Assembly (NCBI GenBank): GCA_014584605.1
Contig: JACTMO010000062.1
Location: forward strand, 62,001-126,000
Length of the DNA: 64,000 nucleotides
Direction of reading: 5' to 3'
From: Bacteroidota bacterium
GTDB lineage: Bacteria > Bacteroidota > Bacteroidia > Flavobacteriales_F > PHOS-HE28
Both the position numbers and the translations under genes were made by a program. Shown here piece after piece: positions 2,803 through 34,214 of this stretch (its first letter is position 1; the number at the start of each line of letters is the position of its first letter). The notes beneath the pieces are model-generated. The model made no database searches. It saw only the letters and a list, made by a program, of their open reading frames with translations, and was not told the DNA's origin.

Positions 2803-2856
2803 GGGTCGATCCCACAGCTGTGGACAATCGGTCCGGGCGGCGAAGCACGAGCCCGG

Positions 2857-2864
2857 TATCTTTG
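2857..2864 (+). promoter_or_regulatory. Bacteroidota -7-like element (TATCTTTG) upstream of carA
   Basis: TAnnTTTG match 7 nt upstream of the carA ATG. Confidence 0.5.
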
Positions 2865-2871
2865 GCGCCCG

Positions 2872-5350
<2,479 letters not shown>

Positions 5351-5386
5351 GCGGCTACCTTCGCGGGAGCCCCTCGGGGCCGCCCC

Positions 5387-6247: not shown

Positions 6248-6263
6248 AGCCTGTGGGAGGACC

Positions 6264-6271
6264 TACCTTTC
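6264..6271 (+). promoter_or_regulatory. -7-like element TACCTTTC upstream of helicase gene
   Basis: TAnnTTTG-like motif ending 8 nt before ATG 6280. Confidence 0.45.
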
Positions 6272-6279
6272 GGACCTTC

Positions 6280-8676: not shown

Positions 8677-8734
8677 GGAACAGGCCCAGGCCAAGGAGCG
8701 GTTCGCCGATATCGCCGCATCTTCGTTCGCGCCG

Positions 8735-10297: not shown

Positions 10298-10406
10298 ATT
10301 CCATCGTTCCGCCTACCTTTGGCCGAGGCCAGGCCGGAGCGATGTCACCGTTGCTCCATCGCGATCGCCGATCGTAGTGTCCGGCCCCAACGACCTTCCG
10401 CACCGC

Positions 10407-11075
10407 ATGAGCACGCTTCCCGCCGTTCCGTACGACTACAACACGCGCCGTCCGCGCCTGATCATCCCCGAATACGGCCGCCATGTGCAACGCATGGTGG
10501 AGCACTGCATGGCCGTGGAGGACCGCGCCGAGCGCACCCGCCTGGCCAGGGCCATCATCCAGGTGATCGGCCGGCTCAACCCCCAGCTCCGCAGCAGCGA
10601 GAACGCCGACCGCACGCTGTGGGACCACCTCCACATCATGAGCGATTTCAAGCTCGATGTGGACAGCCCCTTCCCCAAGCCGTCGCCTGAGGAGCTCGAC
10701 TCCAAGCCCGCGCGCGTGCCCTACCCGCAGCAGCCCGTCCGCTTCGGCCACTACGGCAAGCTGGTGGAACGCATGATCGAGCAATGCGCGGCCCTGGAGC
10801 CCGGGGAGAAGCGTGATGCCTATGCCCACCTGATCGCCAACCTGATGAAGCGCCAGTTCCTGAGCTGGAACCGCGACACGGTGCCCGACGGGGTGATCCT
10901 CAAGGACCTGCACGACCTGAGCAAGGGGCGCTTGAGGCTCAAGGAGGACCAGCAGCTGGCCAGCACCGACGCCTTGCTGCAGGCCCAGCGCAACGGCCCC
11001 CGCAACGAGGCCGAGGTGCGCAAGCGCGGCAAGAAGCGGCACCGCAACCGCAACAAGAAGGGCGGCCGGTACTGA
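10407..11075 (+). CDS. DUF4290 family protein
   Basis: YDYNTRRPRLIIPEYGRHVQRMVEHCM ... FGHYGKLVERMIE, basic C-terminal tail. Confidence 0.85.
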   Translation: MSTLPAVPYDYNTRRPRLIIPEYGRHVQRMVEHCMAVEDRAERTRLARAIIQVIGRLNPQLRSSENADRTLWDHLHIMSDFKLDVDSPFPKPSPEELDSKPARVPYPQQPVRFGHYGKLVERMIEQCAALEPGEKRDAYAHLIANLMKRQFLSWNRDTVPDGVILKDLHDLSKGRLRLKEDQQLASTDALLQAQRNGPRNEAEVRKRGKKRHRNRNKKGGRY

Positions 11076-11179
11076 AGGCCCCCGCGCCGTTGTGAGGCCG
11101 TGGTTGTTAGCAGCCCGGCGCACATGGCCTGCGCGACAGCGTTCCCACGCCCTTGCTTCGCGGCAAGAAGTGCCATGCC

Positions 11180-12487
11180 ATGGGAAGTTTCCGCATCGAA
11201 GGCGGCCGACGGCTGAAGGGTGAGCTGGTGCCGCAGGGCGCCAAGAACGAGGCCCTCCAGATCCTGTGCGCCGTGCTGCTCACCAGCGAGCCGGTCACCC
11301 TCCACAACGTGCCCGACATCGTGGACGTGAACAAGCTCATCGACCTGCTGAAGGCCATGGGCGTGACCGTGGAGAAGCTCGGCACGGGCAGCTATCGCTT
11401 CCAGGCGAGGACCGTGAACCTGGAGTTCTTCCTTGAACCGGAGTACAAGCGCCTTGGCGGCAGCTTGCGCGGCAGCGTGATGGTGGCCGGTCCGGCGCTC
11501 GCCCGTTTCGGCCGCGGGTACATCCCCAGCCCCGGGGGTGACAAGATCGGCCGACGCCGGATGGACACGCACTTCACGGGCTTCGAGAAGCTGGGCGCCA
11601 CCATCAAATACGACGAGAACGACGCCTTCTACCGCGCGGAAGCCAAGCAGCTCAAAGGCTGCTACATGCTGCTCGATGAGGCCAGCGTGACCGGCACGGC
11701 CAACATCGTGATGGCCGCCTCGCTCGCCGAGGGCCGCACCACGATCTTCAACGCGGCGTGCGAACCCTACCTGCAGCAGCTCTGCGGCATGCTCGTGCGC
11801 ATGGGGGCCAGGATCCAGGGCATCGGCAGCAACCTGCTCGTCATCGACGGGGTGAAGGAGCTCGGCGGCACCGAGCACCGCATGCTGCCGGACATGATCG
11901 AGATCGGTTCCTTCATCGGCCTGGCCGCCATGACGCGCAGCGAGATCACCATCAAGGACACCGGCTACGACCACCTCGGTGTGATCCCTGACGTGTTCCG
12001 GAAGCTCGGCATCACCGTGGTGCGCCGGGGCGACGACATCCACATCCCCTCGCACGACCATTACACCATCGAGCCCTTCCTGGACGGCAGCAACCGCGTG
12101 ATCAGCGACCATCCCTGGCCGGGCTTCACCCCGGACCTGCTGAGCATCGTGCTGGTCACCGCCACCCAAGCCCGCGGGCACGTGCTCATCCACCAGAAGA
12201 TGTTCGAGAGCCGCCTGTTCTTCACGGACAAGCTGATCGAGATGGGCGCGCAGATCACGCTTTGCGACCCCCACCGCGCGCTGGTGATCGGCAAGGACTT
12301 CGAGAAACCCCTGCGCGCCATCCGCATGACCAGCCCCGACATCCGGGCGGGCGTTTCACTGCTCATCGCGGCCCTGAGCGCCGACGGCACCAGCACCATC
12401 GACCACATCGAGCAGATCCGGCGTGGCTATCAGGACATCGAAGGACGGCTGAACGCCATCGGGGCAAGGATCAGCGTGGTGGACTAA
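11180..12487 (+). CDS. murA: UDP-N-acetylglucosamine 1-carboxyvinyltransferase
   Basis: FRIEGGRRLKGELVPQGAKNEALQILCAVLLTSEPVTLHNVPDIVDV; EPTOP-synthase fold repeats; start set at ATG 11180. Confidence 0.93.
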   Translation: MGSFRIEGGRRLKGELVPQGAKNEALQILCAVLLTSEPVTLHNVPDIVDVNKLIDLLKAMGVTVEKLGTGSYRFQARTVNLEFFLEPEYKRLGGSLRGSVMVAGPALARFGRGYIPSPGGDKIGRRRMDTHFTGFEKLGATIKYDENDAFYRAEAKQLKGCYMLLDEASVTGTANIVMAASLAEGRTTIFNAACEPYLQQLCGMLVRMGARIQGIGSNLLVIDGVKELGGTEHRMLPDMIEIGSFIGLAAMTRSEITIKDTGYDHLGVIPDVFRKLGITVVRRGDDIHIPSHDHYTIEPFLDGSNRVISDHPWPGFTPDLLSIVLVTATQARGHVLIHQKMFESRLFFTDKLIEMGAQITLCDPHRALVIGKDFEKPLRAIRMTSPDIRAGVSLLIAALSADGTSTIDHIEQIRRGYQDIEGRLNAIGARISVVD

Positions 12488-12666
12488 GGGTGCCATGCCG
12501 GCGTGGGAGGCGGCGCGCGCCGGCCGGTCCACCCTCGCACCAGCAAGTGCCGCCACACCCGGCCGGTTGCTTGAGCCGGGGCGCCCCGACCGCCCTACGG
12601 CGCGAGCGTCCGGCCTGCGGCATGATCTTGGCAGCGGTCGGCACAACGTTCGCCTAAATTCGCACC

Positions 12667-13239
12667 ATGAACACCCGTTCCACCATGAGCAAGCTGCGCG
12701 TGACCATCCTGGCTGCCGTGGCCCTGCTGGCCATCTACGGTTTCACCGAGCGCATGGAACAGAAGGCCGGCAAGGGGGCCAAAGTGGGCACCGCCATCGG
12801 CGACCTGGCCCCGGACCTCGCCTTCATGAACGTGGACAGCACCAAGGTGCTGAAGCTCTCCGAACTGCGCGGCAAGTACGTGCTGATCGACTTCTGGGCC
12901 AGCTGGTGCGGGCCCTGTCGGCGCGAGAACCCCAACGTGGTGGCCGCCTACCAGAAGTACAGCCAGGCCAAGTTCAAGGACGGCAAGGGCTTCGAGATCT
13001 ACAGCGTGAGCCTGGACAAGAGCCGCGAAGCCTGGCGGAGGGCCATCGAGCAGGACAAACTGAGCTGGAAATACCATGTGAGCGACCTGAAGTACTGGGC
13101 CTCGGAGGCTTCGCGGCTGTACGGCGTCTCCGGGATCCCCATGAGCTTCCTGGTGAACCCCGAGGGCATCATCGTGGGCAAGAACCTGCGGGGCCTGGCC
13201 CTGCACCAGGAGCTGGACAAGTACGTGAAGAGCCTTTGA
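12667..13239 (+). CDS. TlpA-family thioredoxin-like protein
   Basis: LRGKYVLIDFWASWCGPCRRENPNVVAAY (CGPC active site). Confidence 0.93.
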   Translation: MNTRSTMSKLRVTILAAVALLAIYGFTERMEQKAGKGAKVGTAIGDLAPDLAFMNVDSTKVLKLSELRGKYVLIDFWASWCGPCRRENPNVVAAYQKYSQAKFKDGKGFEIYSVSLDKSREAWRRAIEQDKLSWKYHVSDLKYWASEASRLYGVSGIPMSFLVNPEGIIVGKNLRGLALHQELDKYVKSL

Positions 13240-13261
13240 TCGCATCACCGACCGCCCTGGG

Positions 13262-13287
13262 GCCCCGCTGCGGCGGGGCTCTTTTCT
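13262..13287 (+). terminator. Rho-independent terminator after TlpA gene
   Basis: gccccgc-tgcg-gcggggc stem followed by tcttttct. Confidence 0.75.
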
Positions 13288-13341
13288 ATACGCCGCCCTG
13301 TCATTTTGTCCCCGGAAACCGCCCGGCACTGTCCTTGACCC

Positions 13342-14013
13342 ATGCGCAGCATCTTCGGAAAATCACGAAAACCCATGACGGAACGCCCGGAAACCGCCGC
13401 TCCGCCCGAGCATGCTGCCAAAGCTGCCGCACCTGGCCTGCCAAACGATGGTGAGGGACAGGACCAGATGGACCCCCTGACCGCCGCCTCGGAAGCAGCC
13501 GCGGAGCACGCCCTGCGCGACGCCCGGCCCGATGGCGTGAACGAGGCCGAAAGCCTGCGGTCCGAATTGGAGCGCGCCCGTGCCGAGGTCGCCGACCTGA
13601 AGGACCGGTGGCTGCGCCTCAACGCCGACATGGACAACTTCCGCAAGCGCACGGCCCGGGAGCGGCTCGACCTCATCCAGTTCGCCGCCGAGAACACCGT
13701 GCGCAACCTGCTGCCCGTGCTGGACGACATGGAGCGGGCCATCGCCAACAACGCCCGCGCCGAGGACCTGGGGGCCGTGAAGGAGGGCTTCCACCTGATC
13801 CAGACCAAGCTGCTCCACATCCTCGGCAGCCAGGGGGTGAAACCCATGACCGACATGGTGGGCAAGCCCTTCGACGTGGACCGCCAGGAGGCCGTGAGCA
13901 AAACTCCTGCACCCGATCCCGCGCAGAAAGGATGCGTGCTGGAGGTGCTGGAGAACGGCTACACCCTGCACGACAAAGTGATCCGCTACGCCAAGGTGCT
14001 GGTGGGCGAGTGA
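13342..14013 (+). CDS. grpE: Nucleotide exchange factor GrpE
   Basis: [48 protein letters not shown]; directly upstream of dnaJ. Confidence 0.95.
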
Positions 14014-14062
14014 GCCCGGCATCCGCCGTACATCCCCTGCCTGCCGCAAGCCGAACCCACCG

Positions 14063-15190
<1,128 letters not shown>

Positions 15191-15205
15191 GCCCCACCGC
15201 CGGAC

Positions 15206-15823
15206 GTGGCTACCTTGCCTGTCCGCATGCTGCCCGCCCGCCGATCCGATCCGCGCAGCCAGGTGCCGCCCCGTGCCGCACCCGCACCTCGTTCGCCCTT
15301 CGAGCGCCTGCGTTGGGGGCACCTGGTTCCCCTCTGGTTCGTCGGCGTGCCGTGCGTGGTGCTGCTTGCCCGCACCACCCTGCTCAGCACCGACGGCTGG
15401 CTGCGCTGGCTCGGTGCCCTGGTGGCCCTGATCGCCCTGGTGGCCCGCCTGCTGGACCGCCGCTACCGCTTCGGGCCCTGGGCCTCCCTGATCGCCGGCC
15501 TCTTCGGCGGCCTGCCCCTGCTGGCCACCCTCGCCCTGAGCCTCAACCGCATGGCGGGGCGCGAGCGCACCGAGGAGCTGCGCATCCTCGGCATCGAGCG
15601 CCGCAGGGACCTCGACGGGCTGCTGCTCCACCTGGAGGGCGATGCCTATGCCGAGTTCCCCGGAAAGCTGCGCACGGCCCCGCTGGACCCCGTGGTGTGG
15701 TCGGCGGACAGGCTGCGGACCACCTTCCGCGACGGGCTGCTGGGGGTGCCGGTGGTCCTGGAACAGGAACTGTTGCCCGGGCCGGAGGGCCACCGCCTGC
15801 CCGACCTCACACGGACCCCCTGA
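15206..15823 (+). CDS. Hypothetical membrane protein (start probably ATG 15227)
   Basis: Two to three TM segments; no family recognised; downstream of a TACCTTGC element. Confidence 0.6.
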   Translation: MATLPVRMLPARRSDPRSQVPPRAAPAPRSPFERLRWGHLVPLWFVGVPCVVLLARTTLLSTDGWLRWLGALVALIALVARLLDRRYRFGPWASLIAGLFGGLPLLATLALSLNRMAGRERTEELRILGIERRRDLDGLLLHLEGDAYAEFPGKLRTAPLDPVVWSADRLRTTFRDGLLGVPVVLEQELLPGPEGHRLPDLTRTP

Positions 15824-21237: not shown

Positions 21238-22209
21238 ATGAAGGGACCTTATACGCTGCGCATCGCCTGGCTGCTGCTGCCCGTGCTCCTCGGAAGTACG
21301 CCGCTCCAGGCCCAGTACTTCCGCAAGTCGAACTACTGGAAGACCAACCGCAACGAGATCACCTTCGGGGTGGGCGCCTCGAACTTCCTGGGTGAGCTGG
21401 GCGGACGTGACCAGATCGGCACCTCCTTCATCTGGGACCTGGAGGTGAGCCAGACCCGCCCGGCGGTGAGCCTGGGCTGGCGCTACCATGTCCGGGAGAA
21501 GATGTCCCTGCGCACCTCGCTGGCCTATGGCGTGCTGGCCGGCAACGACAACCTCACGGCCGAGACCTTCCGCCGCAACCGCAACCTCAACTTCCGCAGC
21601 GACCTGTTCGAGTTCAGCGTGCTGTTCGAGCTGCACGCCTTCAAAGAGGAACTGGGCCACATCTACGACCTGCGCGGGGTGAAGGGCCAGAAGGCGAGCC
21701 GTGTGGGCCTCTATGGTTTCGTCGGCGTCGGTGGTTTCTACTTCGACCCGCGAGGCAAGTTCAACAACACCTGGGTGCGGTTGAAGCCGCTGCGCACCGA
21801 GGGTCAGGGGCTGCCGGGCGGAGCGCAGGAGTACAGCAACTTCGGCTTCTGCATCCCCATGGGCTTCGGCATCCGCAAGGCCCTCACCAAGCAATGGAGC
21901 GTGGGCCTGGAACTGCAGCACACCACCACCTTCACGGACTACATCGACGATGTGAGCACCGTGTACTACGACCCGGAGGCCATCCGTGCGGTGAGCGGCG
22001 ATGTGGGCGTGTACCTGGCCGACCCCAGCCTGGGCGTGGGCGACGGCATCAGCGAGTTCACCACGAGCCCCGGTCAGCAACGCGGGGACAGCAGCGACAA
22101 GGACGCCTATCTCTTCCTGCGCCTACAGGTGCATCACAAGCTGTACAAGTACAAGAGCGGCAGCAAGAAGTACCGCACCCGCATCCGCCGCCAGAAGATC
22201 ATCTTCTGA
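21238..22209 (+). CDS. DUF6089 family outer-membrane protein (PorG-like)
   Basis: Signal peptide, QAQYFRKSNYWKTNRNEITFGVGASNFLGELGGRDQIGT... typical of Bacteroidota DUF6089 proteins. Confidence 0.75.
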   Translation: MKGPYTLRIAWLLLPVLLGSTPLQAQYFRKSNYWKTNRNEITFGVGASNFLGELGGRDQIGTSFIWDLEVSQTRPAVSLGWRYHVREKMSLRTSLAYGVLAGNDNLTAETFRRNRNLNFRSDLFEFSVLFELHAFKEELGHIYDLRGVKGQKASRVGLYGFVGVGGFYFDPRGKFNNTWVRLKPLRTEGQGLPGGAQEYSNFGFCIPMGFGIRKALTKQWSVGLELQHTTTFTDYIDDVSTVYYDPEAIRAVSGDVGVYLADPSLGVGDGISEFTTSPGQQRGDSSDKDAYLFLRLQVHHKLYKYKSGSKKYRTRIRRQKIIF

Positions 22210-22372
22210 TCCCGTCGGCGCCGCCGCCGCCACACATCCGCGCGTGCCAGGGCCCGGGGTGGGCCCGTTGTCCCATGGGGTTCCGTCATTCCCGTCCAAG
22301 CGCAAGGCCCCTATCTTGCCGGCATCTGAAGCACCGGTATCCACCGCACGACCGTCCTTTCCGACGAAGCCC

Positions 22373-23128
22373 ATGAACGCCACCGACCCGCACCCCACCG
22401 CGCTCGATGTCCGCGTCCTGGTCCCCATCGACCGGCACACCACCCTGCTGAAGCTGTTCCAGGAGCTGCCCGTGGGCGGGAGCTTCGTGTTCATCAACGA
22501 CCACGACCCGCTGCCGCTGTACTACGAGTTCCGCTCCATCCACGGCGACGTGGTGGGCTGGGAATACCTGGTGCGCGGCGGCCACGATTGGAAGGTGAAG
22601 GTCACCCGCACGGAAGCGTCCCAGGGCCGCACGTTCACCGACATCGCCACCCTGATGGACCTGCGCAAGGTGGACCCCGCCCACTGGAAGCACGTGGTGT
22701 TCCACCGCTACGGCATGATGAAGGAAGGCGACACCATGGAGATCATCGCCGCCCAGGAGCCGGAGGAGATCCACCGGATCTTCAATGAAAAGTTCGCTTC
22801 CCGAATGGCATGGAGCTTCAGGAAGCAGGCGCCCGGTGAATGCGTCGTTCACGTGAAGAAGCTCCAGCAGGGCGACATGCCCGACCTGGACCTGCTGGTG
22901 GTGCAAGCCTTCGATGTGCGCCCCCACCACCCGGCGCGGCGGCACGAGATGGTGTTCGACGCCTTCGATGCCCTGAAGCCGGGCGAGGCCTTCGTCTTCA
23001 CCAACGACCACGACCCCAAGCCGCTCTACTACCAGATCGAAGCGGAAAGCGGTGTGCCGTTCCAGTGGGACTACCTGGTGAACGGGCCCGAGGAATGGAA
23101 GGTGCGGGTGGCGAAGTTGAAAGGTTGA
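22373..23128 (+). CDS. Protein with three tandem DUF2249-like domains
   Basis: Repeats LDVRVLVPIDRHTTLLKLFQELPVGGSFVFINDHDPLPLYYEF / MDLRKVDPAHWKHVVFHRYGMMKEGDTMEIIAAQEPEEIHRIF / FDVRPHHPARRHEMVFDAFDALKPGEAFVFTNDHDPKPLYYQI. Confidence 0.8.
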   Translation: MNATDPHPTALDVRVLVPIDRHTTLLKLFQELPVGGSFVFINDHDPLPLYYEFRSIHGDVVGWEYLVRGGHDWKVKVTRTEASQGRTFTDIATLMDLRKVDPAHWKHVVFHRYGMMKEGDTMEIIAAQEPEEIHRIFNEKFASRMAWSFRKQAPGECVVHVKKLQQGDMPDLDLLVVQAFDVRPHHPARRHEMVFDAFDALKPGEAFVFTNDHDPKPLYYQIEAESGVPFQWDYLVNGPEEWKVRVAKLKG

Positions 23129-23503
23129 TGGCGGATCCACGGTCGCCCACGCCCCGGCGAAGTGCCGCCGCGCAGACCCGCTCGAAGCAGGACCGGTGGC
23201 GGCGGTCGTGCCAGGCGATCCGGATGTTCTCGCTCGGCTCCGCCTGCGGGAGGGCTGCGTTCGTGCGTGCCGAGTGAGGTCGGCCTAGGGCCTCCGGCCC
23301 GCCTTTGCTTCAAGGCCGCTCACGACGCACGGCCCGTCACACCCGCTGACCCGAGCGGCAAAGAAGCGGGATGCCGTGTTGCGGCCGGAGGCCGCGATGG
23401 GTCTTGCACAAACATCCGGGATCCGTGGCAGGCACTCGGCCCCCGCATGCCCAGCCCCACGCGCCGAACACTTGCGCGATTTGGGCGGCCCGCTCTGGGG
23501 CCG

Positions 23504-23526
23504 CGCAACAGAACCGCATTCTCTTC
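23504..23526 (-). repeat. Cassette 3' flank repeat, copy 1
   Basis: cgcaacagaaccgcattctcttc, identical 23-mer to 24243-24265, 3 nt from the toxin stop codon. Confidence 0.85.
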
Positions 23527-23529
23527 AGG

Positions 23530-23823
23530 CTATGGCCCGTACTTCGGGTGCGGCTTGCGCTTGACGTGGATCACACGGTAGATGAACACTTCCTGCCCGT
23601 CGATCTCATAGACCACGCGGTAAGGGAACTTACGTAGCATCGCGTGGCGGAAGTCGCCTTTGCGGACCTGATAGCCGCGCGGATCGGCTTCGATCGAGTC
23701 GTAGCATTCCTTCAGCGCCACCATGAACCGGTCGCCCAACTGCGGGCGGATGGTGTGGTACCAGAAGAAGGCTTCGAGCACATCCTTGGCAGCGCTGCTG
23801 CGCACGACCATGCGATAGCTCAT
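23530..23823 (-). CDS. RelE/ParE-family toxin 1
   Basis: GDRFMVALKECYDSIEADPRGYQVRKGDFRHAMLRKFPYRVVYEIDGQEVFIYRVIHVKRKP. Confidence 0.88.
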   Translation of the reverse strand: MSYRMVVRSSAAKDVLEAFFWYHTIRPQLGDRFMVALKECYDSIEADPRGYQVRKGDFRHAMLRKFPYRVVYEIDGQEVFIYRVIHVKRKPHPKYGP

Positions 23824-24053
23824 TTCTTGATCATCTCGCGGGCCATGCGCTGCACTTCCTCCCAGGTGTAGGAACTGCCTTCTCCGCGCAAGCGTTCGGC
23901 CCGCAAGGATTCCAGTTCGGCCAGTTCTTCCTCACTGATGTCGCTGTCCTCCACTTCGGTGTCGATCACTTCGCGCACCCGGTCAAGGATGGCCGTGTCG
24001 CGAACGGCCAGCATGCGCTGCACCAGTTCGAGCTTGATCGCTGCGATGTCCAT
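23820..24053 (-). CDS. Antitoxin partner of RelE/ParE toxin 1
   Basis: 77-aa acidic protein, overlaps the toxin start by 4 nt (ATGA). Confidence 0.82.
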   Translation of the reverse strand: MDIAAIKLELVQRMLAVRDTAILDRVREVIDTEVEDSDISEEELAELESLRAERLRGEGSSYTWEEVQRMAREMIKK

Positions 24054-24081
24054 GGCTTCTTGATTGGTCCGGTAAAGTTAG
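24051..24081 (-). promoter_or_regulatory. Conserved cassette 5' leader, copy 1 (contains CTAACTTTACCGGAC)
   Basis: 26/31 identical to 24794-24824; TAACTTTA resembles the Bacteroidota -7 element. Confidence 0.6.
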
Positions 24082-24088
24082 GGCGGCT

Positions 24089-24266
24089 CTATCCGATCGG
24101 GTGGAACCGGGCCACGTCTTCGGCCAAGCCTTCCAGGTCATTGATCAAGTAGGCTTCCGTGCTGCTCACGTAACGGTGACCCGCTCTGTGCTGCGCTTCC
24201 CGCAGGTTCAGCGTCTTGATCCAGTGCGTGATCACGCTGGCCCGCAACAGAACCGCATTCTCTTCC
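24089..24266 (-). pseudogene. Tyrosine recombinase C-terminal fragment
   Basis: EENAVLLRASVITHWIKTLNLREAQHRAGHRYVSSTEAYLINDLEGLAEDVARFHPIG matches the C-term of the intact recombinase 28391-29428. Confidence 0.88.
24243..24265 (-). repeat. Cassette 3' flank repeat, copy 2
   Basis: Same 23-mer as 23504-23526, 4 nt from the toxin 2 stop codon. Confidence 0.85.
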
Positions 24267-24269
24267 GTG

Positions 24270-24563
24270 CTACGGCCCGAACTTCCTGCTGGGCCTGCGG
24301 CTCGTGTGCCGCACTTGGTACACGAACACCGTGCTGCCTTCAACCTCATACACCACGCGGTATTTCAGCTTGTGCAGCATCGCATGGCGGTAGCCGCCCT
24401 TGCGGACCTGGTAGCCGTACGGATTGGCCTTGATCCTCGCGTAGCAGTCCACCAACGCATCCATGAACCGGTCGCCCGATCCCTTCTTCCCGCGCTCGCG
24501 GTAATGGTAGACCTTCCGCACTTCCTTGATGGCCTTGGGATCGACCTGCAACGTGTACTTCAT
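24270..24563 (-). CDS. RelE/ParE-family toxin 2
   Basis: GDRFMDALVDCYARIKANPYGYQVRKGGYRHAMLHKLKYRVVYEVEGSTVFVYQVRHTSRRP. Confidence 0.88.
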   Translation of the reverse strand: MKYTLQVDPKAIKEVRKVYHYRERGKKGSGDRFMDALVDCYARIKANPYGYQVRKGGYRHAMLHKLKYRVVYEVEGSTVFVYQVRHTSRRPSRKFGP

Positions 24564-24796
24564 GCCTTGCGTCCCGTGCGGATCATGCGGATGGATTCCT
24601 CCTCGCTGATGAACTTCACTTTCCCGCTGATCCGGTCGGCACGTTGGGCGTCCAGTTCCGCCACCTCCTCATCGGTCAGGTCGTCCTCCTGCGGCTCTTC
24701 CCGGCGCAGAAGCATGCGGATCGCTTCGAGCACCGTGATGTTCTTCTCCTTGCGGAGCAGCTGCTGGATCTCTGTCCGTAGATGGAGCGCGGTCAT
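24560..24796 (-). CDS. Antitoxin partner of RelE/ParE toxin 2
   Basis: 78-aa acidic protein with LRREEPQEDDLTDEEVAELDAQRADRI; 4-nt overlap with the toxin. Confidence 0.82.
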   Translation of the reverse strand: MTALHLRTEIQQLLRKEKNITVLEAIRMLLRREEPQEDDLTDEEVAELDAQRADRISGKVKFISEEESIRMIRTGRKA

Positions 24797-24824
24797 GGCC
24801 TGTTGTCTCGTCCGGTAAAGTTAG
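24794..24824 (-). promoter_or_regulatory. Conserved cassette 5' leader, copy 2
   Basis: 26/31 identical to 24051-24081 ending at the antitoxin ATG. Confidence 0.6.
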
Positions 24825-24851
24825 CCCTTCGATAAAGCTCAGGGTGACGGC

Positions 24852-24890
24852 GCTATCCGATGGGATGGAACCGCCCCAATCGCGCAAGTC
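24852..24890 (-). pseudogene. Extreme 3' end of a tyrosine recombinase (remnant)
   Basis: Minus strand reads ...RLARLGRFHPIG*, matching the KFHPIG*/RFHPIG* ends of the other copies. Confidence 0.7.
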
Positions 24891-24983
24891 TTCCCGCGCC
24901 TGGGTTCGCGCGGGGCGACTTGTGCGGAGGCTACCTGTCGCCAAGCCACGAATGAGGCTCGCGAAGTCTGCGTCTTCGCTCGT

Positions 24984-25205
24984 TCAGGTGTCCTGCAAGG
25001 GCGGCAGACGGTCGGCATGTGCGGAGGAATAAAGGTGGTCCTCTGGTGAGGCCACGTACCCCTCCACCACGGGGTTCTCGCGGATATGGTCGGTCACCCG
25101 GTCGATCTCCTCGGTCCGCTCCAGCAGCAGCGGCTTGTTGTGTTGCTGCCAGACCTGGTACGTGGTGTTGTTGCTGTTGCGCTCGCCCGCTTCGCCGAAC
25201 TCAGC
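24984..25205 (-). pseudogene. C-terminal remnant of a Y1 (REP-associated/IS200-like) transposase
   Basis: Minus strand reads EFGEAGERNSNNTTYQVWQQHNKPLLLERTEEIDRVTDHIRENPVVEGYVASPEDHLYSSAHADRLPPLQDT*. Confidence 0.75.
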
Positions 25206-25369: not shown

Positions 25370-25581
25370 GGATGGAGAACGCCAAGAAGATGGCCGACGT
25401 GCTCGGTGCCAGCCTGGACTACTTGATGAGCGAGGACGATACCCAGGAGGTGATCGACAACGCCATGCTGCAACGCATCAAGGAGATCCAGCGCCTGGCC
25501 AAGGATGACCAGAACACGATCATCAACGTGATCGATGCCTTCATCCGGGACACCAAGACCAAGAAGGCCTACGCGACGTAA
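25370..25581 (+). pseudogene. Truncated XRE-type regulator (C-terminal part only)
   Basis: MENAKKMADVLGASLDYLMSEDDTQEVIDNAMLQRIKEIQRLAKDDQNTIINVIDAFIRDTKTKKAYAT aligns with the intact regulator 32374-32706; HTH missing. Confidence 0.75.
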
Positions 25582-25588
25582 TCTTCAA

Positions 25589-25671
25589 GGGCACGAGCTA
25601 CATGCTCGCGCCAGTTAGGGGGCTCGCGCCAGTTTCAGGGGCACGAGCTACAAGCTAGCGTCAGTTATGGG
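25589..25671. repeat. GGGCACGAGCTACAAGCTCGCGCCAGTT hairpin repeats (about 2.5 copies)
   Basis: Copies at 25589-25620, 25622-25640 (partial) and 25638-25671; same repeat at 32713-32747. Confidence 0.8.
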
Positions 25672-26128
25672 GAATTAGATGGAATATGGAATCGGCACCT
25701 AGTTCTAACTCCCAAGTGTACCAGTCCAGCATCACATCCTGATCCACCCCAACTACAGCACAAGTCTCTCCCGTTGCCGAATCGAACAGCCATTCCGCGT
25801 TCGGCTTATAGTAGTAGTATATGCAATGACCGGCATGCAGGGCTGTCTTTGACGGTTGCGATTGATTGAACGGCGGCCTGTACTCCAGGAAGATAGAAAC
25901 TGAGTCTCCAAGTACTTCTGCGGTGACAATCACCGCGTTTGGTCGGTCGTATGCGTATGGTGATGCGGCTTGGATGAACAAGTCCGTAACGCTGTCTAGG
26001 CTGAGTGAAGCAGCGTTCTTGCGACATGCGATTGGTGCGCTTGGTCCGCATCCGGCCAGTAACGCAACAACACCTAGCGCAAGTCCGATTTTACCTTGTG
26101 ACCTCAACAGCAGGGAGTTCATGGACAC
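25661..26128 (-). CDS. Lipoprotein, candidate immunity protein of the adjacent RHS C-terminus
   Basis: Lipobox LALGVVALLAGCGPS; overlaps the end of the RHS fragment by 38 nt; low-GC context. Confidence 0.55.
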   Translation of the reverse strand: MSMNSLLLRSQGKIGLALGVVALLAGCGPSAPIACRKNAASLSLDSVTDLFIQAASPYAYDRPNAVIVTAEVLGDSVSIFLEYRPPFNQSQPSKTALHAGHCIYYYYKPNAEWLFDSATGETCAVVGVDQDVMLDWYTWELELGADSIFHLIPHN

Positions 26129-27074
26129 GCATCATTTCGCGGTCATTGTACATGACCATTAGGCGTGGATTACTCGGAATGAAAATCTCGAAGTAGTCAG
26201 GCACCCGACCGGGATTGTGCTTGTGAAGACTTAGATAGTTCCCACGATCACCGGAAGCCCCAGCTAAGGGCTTGCCGCTAGGACTGAAGCCTGAGGGATA
26301 CGCAGGCCAACCAGTAGTGGAATCGAAAGCGCCAGGATGGCTGTGTGATGTTCGCGTCAGAAGGAGCGTCGGGGATTTACCTAGTACTTTGGATGCCAAG
26401 CTGGCCGTAGGATTGTCAATTGTGCCTTCATCAAATGTTGTTGCCAAGGTTCCTACAAGGGAGCTATTCTCTGCAGTTCCAAACACATTCAATTGCCACT
26501 CTACATTCGTGTGCGTCGCGAAGAATCGATAAGCATCTTCTAGCCCTCGGACATTGCGATTAACGAAGATCGAGTTCGATTTACCTTCAGAAGGTTTCGA
26601 CATTGAACCGAAGTGGCTCTTTATAAAGTCCTTGCTCACCGTCAGAGATTCACCTCCAACTATGCCATCTCCAAAGTCATCGGTAGCGAAGATTCTATCA
26701 AAGGCATCGTCTGTTTCTCGAATAAGAGTAAGCGAACCATCCTGCCCGAGTGAGTAGTCATCTTCGAATGCCCCGTTGGGATCCACATGCTGAATAGGGG
26801 AATCAAAGAAGGCCCTATATGGGGACCAATCTGGCGCATTTGCACTCAAAGGATCCACATTCCACCTTCTCGCCACTCTAGGATCATATTGCCAAAACTC
26901 CGCCGTATAGCTGGTCCCTTCCGCTCCGTATATCTCATTGTCCTTCTCCTGTCCCTGGAACCCGAACCGGTAGCTGTCTGAGGAGTAATTCCTCCCGGGC
27001 AGCAGGGAGCCAAATGTGAAGCAGCCTACCGCACTTTTTCCTGTAATGGCGGGGCTTTCACCCGGCGGGGGTAA
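26091..27074 (-). pseudogene. 5'-truncated RHS-repeat core end plus C-terminal domain with HSHP (JAB-like) motif
   Basis: Frame open upstream of the listed ORF: GSLLPGRNYSSDSYRFGFQGQEKDNEIYGAEGTSYTAEFWQYDPRVARRWNVDP...HVDPNG, then TSHSHPGAFDSTTGWPAYPSG...ASGDRGNYLSLHKHNPG. Confidence 0.75.
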
Positions 27075-27555: not shown

Positions 27556-28390
27556 GGTCGCGTGCTTGGCGCGTGGGCTTCTTCGAGCGGCGATGTGTGC
27601 AGGCGTATTTCTGCCCCGGCCCTGCGGGGCACATGGAGGGCCGGTAGAGCGACGAAGGAGCGGAGACGGACCAGTGCGCGCGTTACGGCGGCCGCCGCTG
27701 GCCTTTAGGCAACCCAGCGGGTTGCTGGCCAGCGCTGCGAGGAGGTCCGAGGAGCGACGGCGCGATCCCTTGCCTGTGCGATGGGTCGGCGCACTTCGTG
27801 GGCGCGTGGATCTCTTCTCGCGTTGGCGTCCACGATGTGCGTGTGCGGGCCTGACGCTGGCCGATCGACAAGGGAGCGAACATCCGGCGTCTTCGACGGT
27901 GGAGCCGACCGCGGAGAGAGGCGAGCGGCTGGCCATGGATGCAAGGGGCGTGACGGAGCGAACGGACGCCGACGGCCGGGCGCGCGCAAGCCAGGCGCGC
28001 CGAACCCCTGCGAGCAAGTCCGCGCATCAGCGCGACCGCTATGGGTTGCAGGGGTGAGTAAAGCGGCGACTGAGGGAGTGACGGCCACGGGCCGATCCGT
28101 AGCGTGAAGGACCGAAGGAACGAGGGCCGAACGCGGTGCGATGCAAGGGGCAACCCGCCTCGGGTTGAGCGGGATCTTGGCCGCGACCCTTGCAGCGCAA
28201 CGGACGGCACAGGGTGCCGGAACGACCGAAGACCTTTTGGAGGCTACTGCTGCGCCAGAGCTTCAGCGGCGGCGTAGCGTAACGACGCGCGGCCCGCATT
28301 TGGGGTCGCGCAACACAAGGCATTTCCCTTGGCTGTTGAGAACTTTTCCAGAGCGCGTATCCGCAACACTTGGTAGCGGATGCGATGCTT

Positions 28391-29428
28391 TCACCCGATG
28401 GGATGGAACTTCCCGATGTCCTCTTGCAACTCGTCCAGGTCGTTGATCCGGTAGGCTTCCGTGCTGCTCACGTAACGGTGCCCGGCCATGTGCTGCACTT
28501 CGCGCAGGTTGTAGAGCTTCAACCAGTGCGTGATCACGCTGGTGCGGATCTGCTTCATGCTCTTCACGCTCTTGTCCTGCTGGTGCAACTTCTCCGTCAA
28601 CTTGAACATGGCGTTATTGATCCCTTGCCCGCTGCCGGTGCTCACGATGAACCGATCACTTGCCTTGCGCGTCAAGGCCAGCAACGCGGGCCGCGCCTTC
28701 AGTTGGTACTCCATCAGGTCCAGGATCTGCGCCGCTTCGAGGATCAGCTCGCGTTCGTTGCTTCTGCGGGTTCCCGCGATGTACACCCTGCCTTCTCTCA
28801 ACTTCAGGTCCTTCTCTTCCAGCCGTGCGATCTCCATCACGTTCAAGCCCTGGAACACCAACAGCCCCACGATCGCCTTGTTGCGCTGATGAGTGAGCGC
28901 ACTGGCGCGGTACCAGTTCTGGTTCTTGTGCTTCTCGTCCTCGGTCCAGGTGTGTTGGTGGTAGAGCTTGTCCAGCCGCTGCCGGTCCAGGATGTCGTAC
29001 AGATGCTTGCGCTGCACGCCTTTGATCGCGACCTGTCGCGTGGGGTTCTCCATCGCTTCGCCGCTGCCCACCAAGTGATCGAACCAATGCCGCAAGCTGT
29101 TCACCGTGGTGCTGATGCTGCGTTGCTTCACCTTGCCGCGCATGCCTTGCACGTAGTGCAGGATGTCCGCGTAGCCCACGTGCTGGATCCCCACGTTCTG
29201 CTGTTCCGCCCATTGCATGAACCGCAAGCTGTCCCGTACGTAACGCTCCGTCGTGCTGCCGCTGTAGCCCTTCCCCAGCAGGTGGTCCACGTAGTCCTCG
29301 ATCGGCCCCGCACTGCGTAACACATCCGCTTCCTTCAACCGTGCCTTGAGTCGCTGGGCTTCTTCCGATCCTACGGCTGTGCGTGCTCGCCCTCGTGTGC
29401 GGCTGTCGCTGCTCTTGCCCAGCTTCAT
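28391..29428 (-). CDS. Tyrosine recombinase/integrase, catalytically divergent (second of the pair)
   Basis: Phage-integrase fold; conserved R-II/H-III/Y (IRTSVITHW...AGHRYVSSTEAY), but GLN replaces GLR and K replaces H in HxxR. Confidence 0.88.
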   Translation of the reverse strand: MKLGKSSDSRTRGRARTAVGSEEAQRLKARLKEADVLRSAGPIEDYVDHLLGKGYSGSTTERYVRDSLRFMQWAEQQNVGIQHVGYADILHYVQGMRGKVKQRSISTTVNSLRHWFDHLVGSGEAMENPTRQVAIKGVQRKHLYDILDRQRLDKLYHQHTWTEDEKHKNQNWYRASALTHQRNKAIVGLLVFQGLNVMEIARLEEKDLKLREGRVYIAGTRRSNERELILEAAQILDLMEYQLKARPALLALTRKASDRFIVSTGSGQGINNAMFKLTEKLHQQDKSVKSMKQIRTSVITHWLKLYNLREVQHMAGHRYVSSTEAYRINDLDELQEDIGKFHPIG

Positions 29429-30471
29429 AGCTCGTCCTCGTGCAGTTGCAGGTACTGGCGGCGCGGGATCTTCTTGTAGGGCTGCGGCTTGTGGCTCGGC
29501 TCGATCCGCTCCACCGTCACCGCTTCCTCGTTCCGTTCTGCGGCCACCAAGTGCGTGTAGACCTGCGTACTCTCCAAGCTGCTGTGTCCCAAGAAGCGCC
29601 CGATCTTCTCCAGGTCCATCCCGTTCTGTAGCAGGTGCGTGGCGATCGAGTGGCGCAGCACATGCAGCCGCACGTTCTTGCTCTGTAGTTCGATGTTGTC
29701 GCTGCGCTGTTGCAGGATCTTCAAGCGTAGTGCCATCGTCTGCGTGTCCATGCGGGTTCCCTTCTGGCTGATGAACAAGGCTTCTTCACGCGGCGCTTTG
29801 AGCATCGCGGGCCGGTGGTCGTAGATCCAGCTTTGCAGGTGGCCGCTCGCCGTCTTGTTGAACGGCACCAGACGTTCCTTGTAGTTCTTGCCCTTGCGCA
29901 CGTGCAGCACCTGCTTGTCCAGGTTGATGTCCCCCAGATCCAGGTGGTAGCCTTCGTTCCTCCGTAGCCCACACCCGTAGAAGATCGTGAGGATGGCGCG
30001 GTCACGCGCGGCGATGGCCTCGGGCTGCCACACGCCCGGCGCGGGCGTTCCCGGATCGGTCACGCGGTAGAGCTCGTGGATCTCCTCCTGGCTCAGGTGC
30101 TCGATCGTGCGCGTGTCGTCGTTCTCCCATTCGATCTTCAGGTGCGGCAGCACCAGCCGCCCGCTCTCGCGCAAGTACTGAGTGAACTTGTAGAGCGCCT
30201 GCAGGTGCTTGTTCAAGGATCCGTTGCTGAGCCCTCCGCCGGTGCGCGTGTTGGTGCGCTCGCGCAAGTGCGCGAAGTGGTCGTGGAAGTCCTGCACGTC
30301 GATCTGTTCGATCCCCGTGGTGCCCGTGCTTTCCAGGTAGTGCAGGAACTCGCGTGCATGCAGGGGCAGCTTGTACACCGTGCGCGGCGCGTAGCCCAGC
30401 ACGTCCAGCCATTCGCGGAAGGACTGTTCCACGTAGCGGAACGCCTCGCTTTCAACGCTCAGTTGCTTCAT
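29425..30471 (-). CDS. Tyrosine recombinase/integrase (XerC/D-like, complete catalytic set)
   Basis: GCGLRRNEGYHLDLGD, GKNYKERLVP, LHVLRHSIATHLL, LGHSSLESTQVYTH; start set at ATG 30471; 4-nt overlap with the next gene. Confidence 0.93.
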   Translation of the reverse strand: MKQLSVESEAFRYVEQSFREWLDVLGYAPRTVYKLPLHAREFLHYLESTGTTGIEQIDVQDFHDHFAHLRERTNTRTGGGLSNGSLNKHLQALYKFTQYLRESGRLVLPHLKIEWENDDTRTIEHLSQEEIHELYRVTDPGTPAPGVWQPEAIAARDRAILTIFYGCGLRRNEGYHLDLGDINLDKQVLHVRKGKNYKERLVPFNKTASGHLQSWIYDHRPAMLKAPREEALFISQKGTRMDTQTMALRLKILQQRSDNIELQSKNVRLHVLRHSIATHLLQNGMDLEKIGRFLGHSSLESTQVYTHLVAAERNEEAVTVERIEPSHKPQPYKKIPRRQYLQLHEDEL

Positions 30472-30562
30472 GTAAAAAGTTCGATCATGGAGCGTTTCCG
30501 CTCCGGTGTGTCTCACTGGCTGCTGCCCCTACGCTGGCAAGGACTTCAGTACGACAAGCCGC

Positions 30563-32215
30563 CTATTGTCCAACTGATGGCATACTGTCCGGCCCAGCTT
30601 CGTCCTTCTTCTTCCTGGACCGCTTGGGCTGTGGCTGCTCCTTCACTTCTTCCGCCTGTGCTTGTCGTGTTGCATGCGTGTGCTTCACTTGCTCGACCAC
30701 GCGTTGCACCTGCGTCTGTATGCTCTGCTGCAAGCCTTGGTAGCTCTTCACGTCGCGCACCTTGTAGCTGTAGCCGCCCCGGTACTTGTTGCCTCCGGTG
30801 ATCTCCAATAGACCGAACTCGCACAACTCGTTCAGGTAGCGGCCCAAGGTGCGCGGGTGGATCCGAAGCTCCTCGCGCACCGTGCTGGCGAAGAAGCCGC
30901 CTTGCTTGGGATCCGTGGCCCTGCTTCGCTGGCCATCCCAGTTCTTCAGCAGTTGGAAGAACACACGCGACGCGCCGCTCAACTCATCCGCCTTGCGGAA
31001 CAGCACATCCTCCAACAGGTCGAACGCCGCTTCCACGTCCTCCGGGCTGCTCTCGATGAACACTTCCCCGGTCCGCTGGTCCACCTGGTGCTCGCGCTGG
31101 TACTGGTGGAAGAAGGTGATCGCCTCGATGAAGCCCAGCAGCAGCGGCAAGGTGCGGCGCGGCTTGAACACTTCGGCGGGCAGGTCGATCAAGGGCGCGT
31201 AGGGGTTGATCACCGTCACCGGTTCCAAGGCCTGTTGCATCCGCCTCAGCTTCGCTTGCAGCAACGCTTCCTTGCCGGTGTCGATCAGCCCCGCCCGCCG
31301 TTGCTTCTGGTAGTGCATGATCCGCGCGTCCTGCTCCTTGCTGCCGTCCAGGTGGATCAACAGGCTCCGGTTCGCGTTGTCCTCATAGACCTTCTCCCGC
31401 GTGGTGCAACCGATCACGCACACCGGACCTTCCACCACCAGCGTCACCGTCTTCAACGCGCCGCTCTTCTCCTTCACCGTCATGGTCTTGCTGATCCGCT
31501 TCTTGCTCTGCAGCTCCCGGATCGGGAACATCACTTCCTGCGCCCCGTCCAAGTCCTCTATCAAAAACACCTTGCCCTTGATCTCTTCGCGCTCGAAGTG
31601 GTAGAAGCTGGCCCCGGTAAAGGCGGTGTTCTCGCGGATCTCCTCGCTGGGCATGCACCCGGCCACCTTCTCCATCAGGTAGCTCTTGCCCGTGCCGCTT
31701 CCTGCCAGGCAGATCACGCTCAACGGATCATGGCGCTTGCGGCTGCCCATGGCGTACCACAGGATCAGCACGTTCTTCTCTTCGCCCAGGATCCCCGTGC
31801 CGTGCAGGTCTTCCAAGGTGCGTTGCTGCAAGTGCTCGTGTTGCAGGTCTTCGATCGCCGCTTGCCGTTCTTCCGCGCTCAAGGTGCTCACGGGCTTCTT
31901 CTCCTGCGCGGCCTCGATCTTCCCCAGCCGGTGGCCTTCGAGTTGCGCGGTGAGCTCGCTCAGGCTCGCCGCCAGCACGCTGGTGCCCACCTCCAGGCGC
32001 TCGGCCGCCTTGCGGATGAACTTCTCCAGCTGCGTGTCATTGTACAGGTCCAGGTTGTGCCGCATCGGCGGGCGCGGGTTGTCCGGGATCGCCACCTTCA
32101 GCGTCACCCGCATCCGGTCCAGGCCTTCCAGCTTGATCCCGCCCAGCACTTCCAGGTGCAACAGCGGGTTGTGCAATGCCAGCGTGCCGGCGGGTCCTTC
32201 GATCAGGTTGGACAT
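30563..32215 (-). CDS. P-loop ATPase resembling the C-terminal part of mobile-element CHC2/primase proteins
   Basis: Walker A CLAGSGTGKSYLM, Walker B KVFLIEDLDGAQ, EDNANRSLLIHLD; N-term NPLLHLEVLGGIKLEGLDRMRVTLKV; no zinc finger/TOPRIM; C-term winged-helix-like. Confidence 0.65.
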   Translation of the reverse strand: MSNLIEGPAGTLALHNPLLHLEVLGGIKLEGLDRMRVTLKVAIPDNPRPPMRHNLDLYNDTQLEKFIRKAAERLEVGTSVLAASLSELTAQLEGHRLGKIEAAQEKKPVSTLSAEERQAAIEDLQHEHLQQRTLEDLHGTGILGEEKNVLILWYAMGSRKRHDPLSVICLAGSGTGKSYLMEKVAGCMPSEEIRENTAFTGASFYHFEREEIKGKVFLIEDLDGAQEVMFPIRELQSKKRISKTMTVKEKSGALKTVTLVVEGPVCVIGCTTREKVYEDNANRSLLIHLDGSKEQDARIMHYQKQRRAGLIDTGKEALLQAKLRRMQQALEPVTVINPYAPLIDLPAEVFKPRRTLPLLLGFIEAITFFHQYQREHQVDQRTGEVFIESSPEDVEAAFDLLEDVLFRKADELSGASRVFFQLLKNWDGQRSRATDPKQGGFFASTVREELRIHPRTLGRYLNELCEFGLLEITGGNKYRGGYSYKVRDVKSYQGLQQSIQTQVQRVVEQVKHTHATRQAQAEEVKEQPQPKRSRKKKDEAGPDSMPSVGQ

Positions 32216-32373
32216 GGTTCGGAGTGATCAGAAAAAGTTCGTTCAGCACTTATCTGCTGCAAGTGTAGCATATCGGCTTGATACGACCAAGCACACCCGC
32301 TTCTTCCTGCACCCATCTGCTTCGTAGTTTCGCGCTGCTGCTGCATTTGCAGTGCATTCAACAACACTTCGGT

Positions 32374-32706
32374 ATGAGCACCTTCGGCAAGCGCATCACC
32401 GCCGCACGCAAGGACAAGGGACTTTCCCAAGGCGACCTGGCCAAGAAGATCGGCACCATGGGCGTGGTCCTGGGACGCTACGAACGCGATGAGGTGAAGC
32501 CCTCCATCGAAGTGGCCGCCAAGATCTCCCAGGCCCTGGGGGTCTCCCTCGATTACCTCGTGGGCAACTCCGAGGTGCTCCTGGACAAGGACCTGATCAA
32601 GCGCATCACCGAGATCCAGCAGCTATCCGAGGCCGACCGACAAGGCATCTTTTTCGCCCTCGATGGGCTCCTCAGGGATGCCAAGGCCAGGAAGGCCTAC
32701 ACCTGA
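32374..32706 (+). CDS. XRE-family transcriptional regulator
   Basis: HTH_3 FGKRITAARKDKGLSQGDLAKKIGTMGVVLGRYERDEVKPSIEVAAKISQALGVSLDYLVG. Confidence 0.92.
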   Translation: MSTFGKRITAARKDKGLSQGDLAKKIGTMGVVLGRYERDEVKPSIEVAAKISQALGVSLDYLVGNSEVLLDKDLIKRITEIQQLSEADRQGIFFALDGLLRDAKARKAYT

Positions 32707-32712
32707 TCTGTT

Positions 32713-32747
32713 GGGGCACGAGCTGCAAGCTCGCGCCAGTTTCGGGG
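32713..32747. repeat. GGGCACGAGCTGCAAGCTCGCGCCAGTTTCGGGG hairpin repeat
   Basis: Same repeat family as 25589-25671, again within 10 nt of an XRE gene stop codon. Confidence 0.8.
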
Positions 32748-32793: not shown

Positions 32794-33327
32794 TCACATG
32801 ATAGTTTCAGCAATCCACAGCACACGATTGCGTTTGTCCAATATATACGTTCTAGCCTTGCTCGGATTGTTGATGTCGGGCCAATAATGAGCTGCGTGTA
32901 CGACTTGGGCGGTGTCGCTTAGTAGTAATCTGATAGTCGCAAGCTTATCGCTTAGAACGGGAGATCTGGTAAAGTATCTAGCTGTCAAAGCGTAGACCTG
33001 GTTACTATCTAAGTTGATGAGGCCTATGCTCCAGGGTATGGAGTGCCATGAACCCAGCCTTGACAATGATGGGTCTGTGTGAAAGTTGACAAGGAAGCTA
33101 TCTACAACGGCAGGTTCAAGCACATAGCGCTCCAAAGTGAACCCTTCGCCTTGAAGGCCTATACCATCTGACCATGAGGTTTCGTCAATCGGTTGAACAT
33201 CCGGGACACCAAGTACGACTGGCAATGTGTCTTTGAAGTGACCCTGTTGGCACGAAACAGAACACAATACCAGTAAGATGAGAACCCAAAGACGCAAAGC
33301 ACCCAAGGCTAAAATTTCGGCCCCCAT
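32794..33327 (-). CDS. Lipoprotein-like protein, candidate immunity protein of RHS locus B
   Basis: LWVLILLVLCSVSCQQG signal/lipobox; overlaps the end of the RHS fragment by 19 nt. Confidence 0.55.
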   Translation of the reverse strand: MGAEILALGALRLWVLILLVLCSVSCQQGHFKDTLPVVLGVPDVQPIDETSWSDGIGLQGEGFTLERYVLEPAVVDSFLVNFHTDPSLSRLGSWHSIPWSIGLINLDSNQVYALTARYFTRSPVLSDKLATIRLLLSDTAQVVHAAHYWPDINNPSKARTYILDKRNRVLWIAETIM

Positions 33328-34214
33328 AAGCCTGGATTATGGACTGGTGCAGGCGGCCGTTGACGAACTCTTCCTGTCCCATAGCCGCGTATTTGGAACC
33401 CTATGCCGTTACCCGCAACCGCGCCACCAATGGCTGTTGCGATATTTCGACCTGTTCGCCCAGGTTGCTGCTCAAAATCATAGGTATCGATGAGTCCGTT
33501 GTTACTCCCTATGCGAACATCAGTTGCCGTAGTCCTCGTCAATAGGATAGTGCCGTAAACCAGTCCGGTTTCCAAATTAGCGTTCGAGAGAGAGGCGAAA
33601 TTCACAGGTACTCCTTGTCCCAGCGGGAGTTCATCGCTAAAGACAGGAGAAAGATCAATCTGGGCGGCATCCACAAACAGAGGCTGGCCATTACCCGTTC
33701 TAAACCATTCGTTTGCCTCTTCCAAGGTTAGCTGTCCATCGTAGTCGGGTCGGGAGTTGAGCGAAGTATGAGTCCGAACCATACTCATCCTCGCTTCCGC
33801 ACTCGCAAAGCCATTGAGCCAGCCCTTATCAAGCTTCTGAGCATCCTCATGCTTCATGCCCTGCTTGAAGTCCTTACTGTCCATCACTATCGCGTCCCCT
33901 TGAAGACCCTGGTCATCCGTACCTAAAAGGTCGCCAGTTGCAGAGTCGTATATTGGTGAGTCATTCGCACCGTTGGGATCGATGTTGGTGATGAACTTGT
34001 TGCTGAAGGCGTGGTAGGGGGACATCCAGGGCTTGTCCACCGGATCCAGGTTCCACCTCCGGGCGATGCGCGTATCGTACTGCCAGTACTCGGCGGTATA
34101 GCTGGTGCTTGTGGCCCCGTAGATCTCATCGTCCATTTCCTGCCCGCCTGCCGCACCGAAGCGGTAGGTATCGCTTTGCCAATTGCGCCCGGGTAAAAGA
34201 GACCCGCCCCGCAT
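33309..34214 (-). CDS. Orphan RHS-repeat core end plus variable C-terminal domain (5'-truncated RHS gene)
   Basis: GSLLPGRNWQSDTYRFGAAGGQEMDDEIYGATSTSYTAEYWQYDTRIARRWNLDPVDKPWMSPYHAFSNKFITNIDPNGANDSPIYD... Confidence 0.82.
   Translation of the reverse strand: MRGGSLLPGRNWQSDTYRFGAAGGQEMDDEIYGATSTSYTAEYWQYDTRIARRWNLDPVDKPWMSPYHAFSNKFITNIDPNGANDSPIYDSATGDLLGTDDQGLQGDAIVMDSKDFKQGMKHEDAQKLDKGWLNGFASAEARMSMVRTHTSLNSRPDYDGQLTLEEANEWFRTGNGQPLFVDAAQIDLSPVFSDELPLGQGVPVNFASLSNANLETGLVYGTILLTRTTATDVRIGSNNGLIDTYDFEQQPGRTGRNIATAIGGAVAGNGIGFQIRGYGTGRVRQRPPAPVHNPGLWGPKF

Follow-up and report, generated by a model that had tools for sequence, protein, structure and literature searches.

ParE-type toxin–antitoxin pairs as likely payloads of a recombinase module associated with Rhs toxin tips in a Bacteroidota bacterium

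How do two different toxin–antitoxin (TA) operons come to lie side by side between flanks that resemble each other more closely than the operons do? The question is raised by a 64,000-nt stretch of DNA from a Bacteroidota bacterium (GTDB lineage PHOS-HE28; assembly GCA_014584605.1, contig JACTMO010000062.1, positions 62,001 to 126,000), called the window below and numbered from its first letter. A sequence-only reading of this DNA had proposed that the operons are cassettes exchanged at the 3' end of a tyrosine recombinase gene. We consider it likely that the TA pairs are instead payloads in an accessory slot behind rec2, the second of two recombinase genes in a putative integrative module that appears to swap the toxin tips of Rhs proteins.

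Both operons lie on the minus strand, as do, inverted repeats apart, all window features below unless marked otherwise. TA1 consists of leader 1 (24794–24824), antitoxin 1 (24560–24796, 78 aa) and toxin 1 (24270–24563, 97 aa; Pfam PF05016, E=9.1e-10); TA2 consists of leader 2 (24051–24081), antitoxin 2 (23820–24053, 77 aa) and toxin 2 (23530–23823, 97 aa; PF05016, E=3.6e-8). As had been noticed from the sequence, the leaders match at 26/31 positions, antitoxin and toxin genes overlap by 4 nt in both pairs, and the 23-mer GAAGAGAATGCGGTTCTGTTGCG occurs in identical copies 3 nt past the stop of toxin 2 (23504–23526) and 4 nt past that of toxin 1 (24243–24265). No longer direct repeat occurs at a spacing of up to 2 kb, and this length exceeds chance, the maximum in 20 Markov windows of the same composition being 17; no third copy was found in the organism's own genome with up to three mismatches allowed. 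The toxins, both of the ParE family, are moderately similar, at 49% identity. The antitoxins had been said to diverge immediately after the ATG; they are indeed different, yet with 29% identity they are still homologous, if distantly. A ParE-fold toxin with an adjoining antitoxin marks both pairs as predicted type II (ParDE) modules; with known ones they share the ParE_toxin domain, the small upstream antitoxin and the 4-nt overlap; they differ in that the antitoxins match no Pfam family and in their site, the payload slot of a recombinase.

That site is apparent from the DNA around the operons. Upstream of TA2 lies the remnant of a rec2 tail (24089–24242, ASVITHW...FHPIG*), with ~80% nucleotide identity over 149 nt to the intact rec2 of the window and 98% protein identity to the rec2 of genome G018. 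A second remnant, overlooked previously, is the rec2 stub GGTTCCATCCCATCGGATAG (24853–24872, FHPIG*) 5' of TA1; between it and leader 1 lies an insertion of 21 nt, ACCCTGAGCTTTATCGAAGGG (24825–24845), where locus L025 has GGATATCGCCGTCCTAACTTTACC. Both TA units therefore share one layout: rec2 tail, leader, TA pair and right flank. The 23-mer behind TA1 is joined to the next rec2 tail, and it had been thought to run in frame into the recombinase C-terminus (EENAVLLR-ASVITHW). This frame proved accidental: relatives have KVKTLQQLRASVITHW at the join, and the intact relative carries KVKTLQQLR where the 23-mer meets ASVITHW. The 23-mer behind TA2 resembles the flank of a module without a TA pair (28302–28329), and we read the 23-mer as the right flank of the module, not as recombinase coding DNA. 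Past TA2 this flank is extended by a G+C-rich stem-loop, TTGCGCGGCCC-CAGAGC-GGGCCGCCCAA (23481–23508), which is not followed by a T-run; similar stems with different loop lengths lie behind module 1 and in locus L024.

The module itself is read from an intact copy at 28391–32706, in the order XRE regulator, primase-like ATPase, rec1, rec2 and payload. The regulator (32380–32706, plus strand; HTH_3, E=7e-14) is divergent from the P-loop ATPase (30563–32215), rec1 (29428–30516) and rec2 (28391–29428), and the slot behind rec2 is empty, ending in the right flank at 28302–28329. The set of tyrosine recombinase residues R-K-HxxR-H/W-Y is complete in 20/20 rec1 proteins. In rec2, Arg I is missing in 17/19 and the HxxR histidine in 18/19, both being absent from the window copy, which suggests a non-catalytic or half-active partner. 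The ATPase gave no convincing match in Pfam or among solved structures and no phage match; relatives on plasmids bear annotations as primase-type proteins (CHC2 or toprim).

Read from tip A downwards, the window holds Rhs tip A, candidate immunity gene A, the intact module 1, a spacer, Rhs tip B, candidate immunity gene B and modules 2 and 3, that is, one intact module and two decayed copies. Tip A (33309–34214, GGSLLPGRNW...) is followed by candidate immunity gene A (32794–33327), so named from its position, and an inverted repeat GGCACGAGCTGCAAGCTCGCGCC (32715–32737) lies past the XRE gene, with 97% identity to G018 over 34 nt. Tip B (26091–27014) begins at the FG of the junction motif; tip A is cut at nearly the same point, about one codon beyond that FG. 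Behind tip B, and again designated by position, is candidate immunity gene B (25661–26128). Over 26091–26876 tip B weakly resembles JAB-like toxin 1 (PF15659), with a score just under the cut-off. Decayed module 2 comprises an XRE remnant (25447–25581, plus strand; 70% nucleotide identity to 32572–32747), the rec2 stub, TA1 and its right flank, and decayed module 3 comprises the rec2 tail, TA2 and its right flank. XRE remnant, rec2 stub and rec2 tail thus stand in order beside an Rhs tip and a candidate immunity gene. The inverted repeat GGCACGAGC...GCTCGCGCC past the XRE remnant (25590–25612) is the same element as that past XRE in module 1 and in locus L047. Modules 2 and 3 seem to have been joined by a deletion that ran from one right flank into the next rec2.

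The position of the TA pairs is not peculiar to the window. In the same genus (genomes G000–G044), rec2 tails lie 5' of TA pairs in six other units (G032, G031, G006, G024, G042 and G002) and also 5' of ORF6N genes in G032 and G031 (loci L023 and L024); an intact rec2 is found only in the window and in G018, where an ORF6N gene follows. When the right flank of module 1 (28302–28329), which has no TA pair, was used as a probe, it matched 6/10 payload ends behind rec2 tails, one of them behind ORF6N (p 0.0003–0.007 each), and 0/10 ends of TA pairs without a rec2 tail. It had been asked whether different small operons lie between the shared flanks, and they do: the slot is occupied by TA pairs, by ORF6N or by nothing. 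Across modules at large the payloads extend to YhcG nucleases, ParE/RelE and PemK toxins, RadC, Fic, an Mrr-type nuclease and a PADLOC candidate PDC-M12 pair. The predicted ParE-type TA pairs do occupy a constant position immediately 3' of a tyrosine recombinase gene. The decayed rec2 copies of the genus keep the last ~20–177 nt of the 1-kb gene and never an intermediate length; none of the tails exceeds 177 nt, and several contain stop codons.

Payload and flank do not tell the same story. At the nucleotide level the TA1 payload is 81% identical to that of G002 and the TA2 payload 88% identical to that of G042, against 65% between TA1 and TA2. For the right flanks the pairing is different, with 88% identity between TA1 and TA2, 88% between G002 and G042, and 74–79% across these two flank types. 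Leader 2 is 94% identical to the leader in G006 while the payloads stand at 62%, the background level. In the toxin tree the tail-associated toxins are polyphyletic, with at least four changes on supported branches, a count in which the loss of a tail would also register as a change. By these measures the histories of payload and flank are discordant, which supports exchange of the payload relative to its flank. The closest competitor holds that gene conversion homogenises the flanks of neighbouring tandem modules while each payload stays where it is. It accounts well for TA1 and TA2, neighbours with identical 23-mers, and for the second flank type shared by G002 and G042, and we give it an appreciable minority share of the probability. 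It sits less easily with the use of one slot and flank by ORF6N and TA pairs in different genomes, with the polyphyly of the tail-associated toxins, or with the likeness of leader 2 to that of G006 in front of an unrelated payload.

The leader deserves separate treatment, as it had been counted among the conserved flanks. Allowing one mismatch at most, the motif CTAACTTTACCGGAC is found immediately 5' of antitoxin starts in the window and, within the genus, in G006, G018, G023, G031, G032, G038 and G043, and leader-bearing TA pairs are found without a recombinase tail more often than with one. Since the leader precedes both kinds of pair, it belongs to the TA pair, presumably as its promoter region. 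The known −7 box of the Bacteroidota is TAnnTTTG; the core TAACTTTA resembles it, and the simplest reading is that each leader would be a promoter with a short 5' leader. E. coli-type sigma-70 promoters were looked for and none was found. As read from the sequences, the distance from the end of rec2 to the start of the box is 7 nt in five units and 2 nt in two; TA1 has a further 21 nt from its insertion. The leader was also considered as a recombination site and was ruled out because it is present at TA pairs without tails.

What the module does is suggested by its company. A search across the class found relatives of rec2 in 37/396 Bacteroidia genomes. Around 37 rec1–rec2 pairs, Rhs sequence lies upstream in 25 of 34 evaluable cases and downstream in 26 of 29, and none was seen in the opposite orientation. 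The open frame before the junction reaches 1276 aa in upstream copies and at most 116 aa in downstream copies; the latter are cut at a conserved core position and adjoined by a small gene, as displaced tips are. The organism's own genome, 3.7 Mb in size, gave only two Rhs-core matches, one of which is tip B. A full-length Rhs gene heads the array in L117, L122, L124–L126, L133, L138, L146 and Aureispira, and is absent from the window. Three tandem arrays allow the crossover to be placed, and in all three the overlap falls in conserved codons of the Rhs core. In G072 the repeat unit 553–7893 equals 7886–15226, with an 8-bp overlap CTTTTGGG in the DY(Y/D)(P/A)FG codons; in G304 the units overlap by 35 bp across the same YPFG codons, longer than expected for a site-specific core; and the units of Aureispira sp. 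CCB-E share 6 bp (TACGAG) within the codons for YE(x)SNHLGNV. As the last is a complete plasmid record (NZ_CP133672.1), an assembly artefact is unlikely. The units of G072 and Aureispira thus have a short identical core at both ends, as an integrative element would. The Aureispira crossovers (L160, 9582 and 17234) lie outside YPFG, so modules may differ in their target motif.

These observations can be joined in the following scheme. Intact modules, each accompanied by a toxin tip and its immunity gene, occupy a constant position within an Rhs gene. Together with rec2, whose catalytic set is incomplete, and the ATPase, rec1 would recombine a circular unit of tip, immunity gene and module at short codons of the Rhs core, so that the new tip is fused to the core in frame and the old one is displaced downstream. 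TA pairs, ORF6N, YhcG, Fic or defence genes would be carried along in the slot, where the TA pairs presumably stabilise the element. Exchange of payloads between the flanks would probably proceed by ordinary recombination or gene conversion.

Displacement of Rhs tips without an integrase is the published model for enterobacteria: Jackson et al. (2009; PMC2935791) described arrays of Rhs tips attributed to homologous recombination through a postulated circle, no integrase being known. Those arrays are like the present ones in their displaced tips with short core fragments and downstream genes and in the circular intermediate proposed for them, and differ in that each unit here has a pair of tyrosine recombinases and that crossovers of 6–8 bp are seen in two of three arrays. 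If tips here too moved by RecA-dependent homologous recombination, the recombinase module would be a mere passenger of the array, as the longer identity around the junction shared by L135 and L137 could indicate. We think this improbable, because RecA would need more than an overlap of 6 or 8 bp, the position and orientation of the module are constant in 37 cases, and the catalytic residues of rec1 are conserved.

Our preferred reading, payloads behind rec2 of a tip-swapping module, has to contend with several observations that weigh against it. In the window's genus nearly all rec2 copies are decayed, and none joins an intact rec2 to a leader and TA pair. Concerted evolution of tandem flanks could account for the flank discordance. 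Upstream of tip A there is no Rhs core. In L135 and L137 the identity runs upstream of the junction, and longer homology was possibly used there. As the modules were gathered by rec2 similarity, the counts above give no unbiased rate of linkage between module and Rhs; Rhs is missing from the 6.5 kb upstream of nine modules and from the downstream side of three, and near the module of L120 no Rhs was seen at all. Rec1, rec2 and the ATPase are intact in L120; the 6.5 kb downstream of them are free of Rhs, and a transposase-like gene adjoins the module.

The proposal of the sequence-only reading, promoter-bearing cassettes exchanged site-specifically by the recombinase at its own 3' end in the manner of integrons, was right in that payloads vary within the slot and have histories discordant with their flanks. 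It drew further strength from the identical 23-mers and from the rec2 tails, three of which (window, L023 and L025) share the breakpoint GCCAGCGTGATCACG. Estimated roughly by hand, the chance of such a match among ten breakpoints is ~10%, which makes it suggestive only, and the remaining breakpoints are scattered, at distances of about 177 down to 20 nt from the stop; the shared one may be a coincidence or a breakage hot spot. In these three cases (window 24225–24242, L023 and L025) the tail begins right before a perfect palindrome GCGTGATCACGC. The 3' end of the recombinase gene is not supported as the insertion site. No attC pair (RYYYAAC/GTTRRRY) was found on either strand of 23301–25000, and in a search for inverted dif sites of 11-6-11 geometry the leaders and the TA1/tail junction gave best arms of 5–7/11; arms of 10/11 occurred only in the stem-loop behind TA2, whose relatives have other loop lengths. 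The integron integrase model TIGR02249 scored 31.8 bits with rec2 and 83.6 bits with rec1, against a cut-off of 265. Since the leader goes with the TA pairs even where there is no tail, no attC pair or paired dif site was found, the tails are short decayed pieces of a rec2 whose family lacks catalytic residues, and the sharp crossovers lie in Rhs codons kilobases away, a cassette system is not supported, and we regard it as very unlikely. The least credible account, a single TA operon duplicated in tandem and then diverged, would explain the common order, overlap, leaders and 23-mers, and is rejected with hardly any reservation because each operon has its closest kin in another genome, the TA2–G042 clade standing in the toxin tree with support of 100/99.

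Other known systems resemble the locus in part. Integron cassettes likewise change their payload between constant flanks; here there is neither attC nor an integron integrase, and the payload has its own putative promoter. Acinetobacter dif (pdif) modules (PMC6449649) are also small adaptive gene units shuffled by tyrosine recombinases, in their case by the host Xer enzymes between 28-bp XerC/XerD sites, and the TA units here do not have such a site at both ends. The rAID arrays are again found in Bacteroidota and combine a tyrosine recombinase with interbacterial immunity genes and conserved intergenic motifs. They consist, however, of orphan immunity genes behind one recombinase, whereas each unit here has a toxin tip, an immunity gene, two recombinases, an ATPase and a slot. 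Two or more co-directional orphan immunity genes were not found behind the recombinase; the slot holds TA, ORF6N, YhcG, Fic, RadC or defence genes. Zhang et al. (PMC3482391) noted that XerC/D genes adjoin some polyimmunity loci. We found no account of such a module in the open-access literature; subscription journals lay mostly outside the search, and a prior description is possible.

On balance, and with somewhat less assurance than for the window itself, we favour the view that these modules belong to a widespread family of integrative elements. Its members would carry tips and immunity genes, insert at short codons of Rhs (possibly also CdiA-like) genes by means of a recombinase pair and a primase-like ATPase, swap the toxin in frame, and offer an interchangeable slot to TA or defence genes. 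The route by which polymorphic toxin genes gain new tips is not settled, and a recombinase module at the exact boundary of the tip, with crossover sites that can be read from arrays, makes the question testable. The payload slot also brings interbacterial toxins, TA addiction and candidate defence genes together on one element.

Similar units occur on plasmids of other bacteria. On pPA1609-475 of Pseudomonas aeruginosa (L159; NZ_CP090650.1, 4373–15068) a TpsA2 hemagglutinin-type toxin is followed by a small gene, an HTH gene, a CHC2 protein, XerC and a RelE/ParE pair, and beyond these lie a further toxin fragment and an incomplete second copy of the unit; judging by this repeat, the module type may also serve CdiA-like toxins. 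A possible excised circle is the circular 11.3-kb plasmid of Lonsdalea populi (L157; NZ_CP072857.1), which carries a toxin, an immunity gene, an HTH gene, a primase, XerC and a DinJ/RelE pair. Two further features lie near the TA operons of the window: a stub resembling, by eye only, the C-terminus of a REP-associated Y1 transposase (25003–25180), and a gene with two tandem copies of a conserved domain (22001–23128, plus strand), which adjoins the array.
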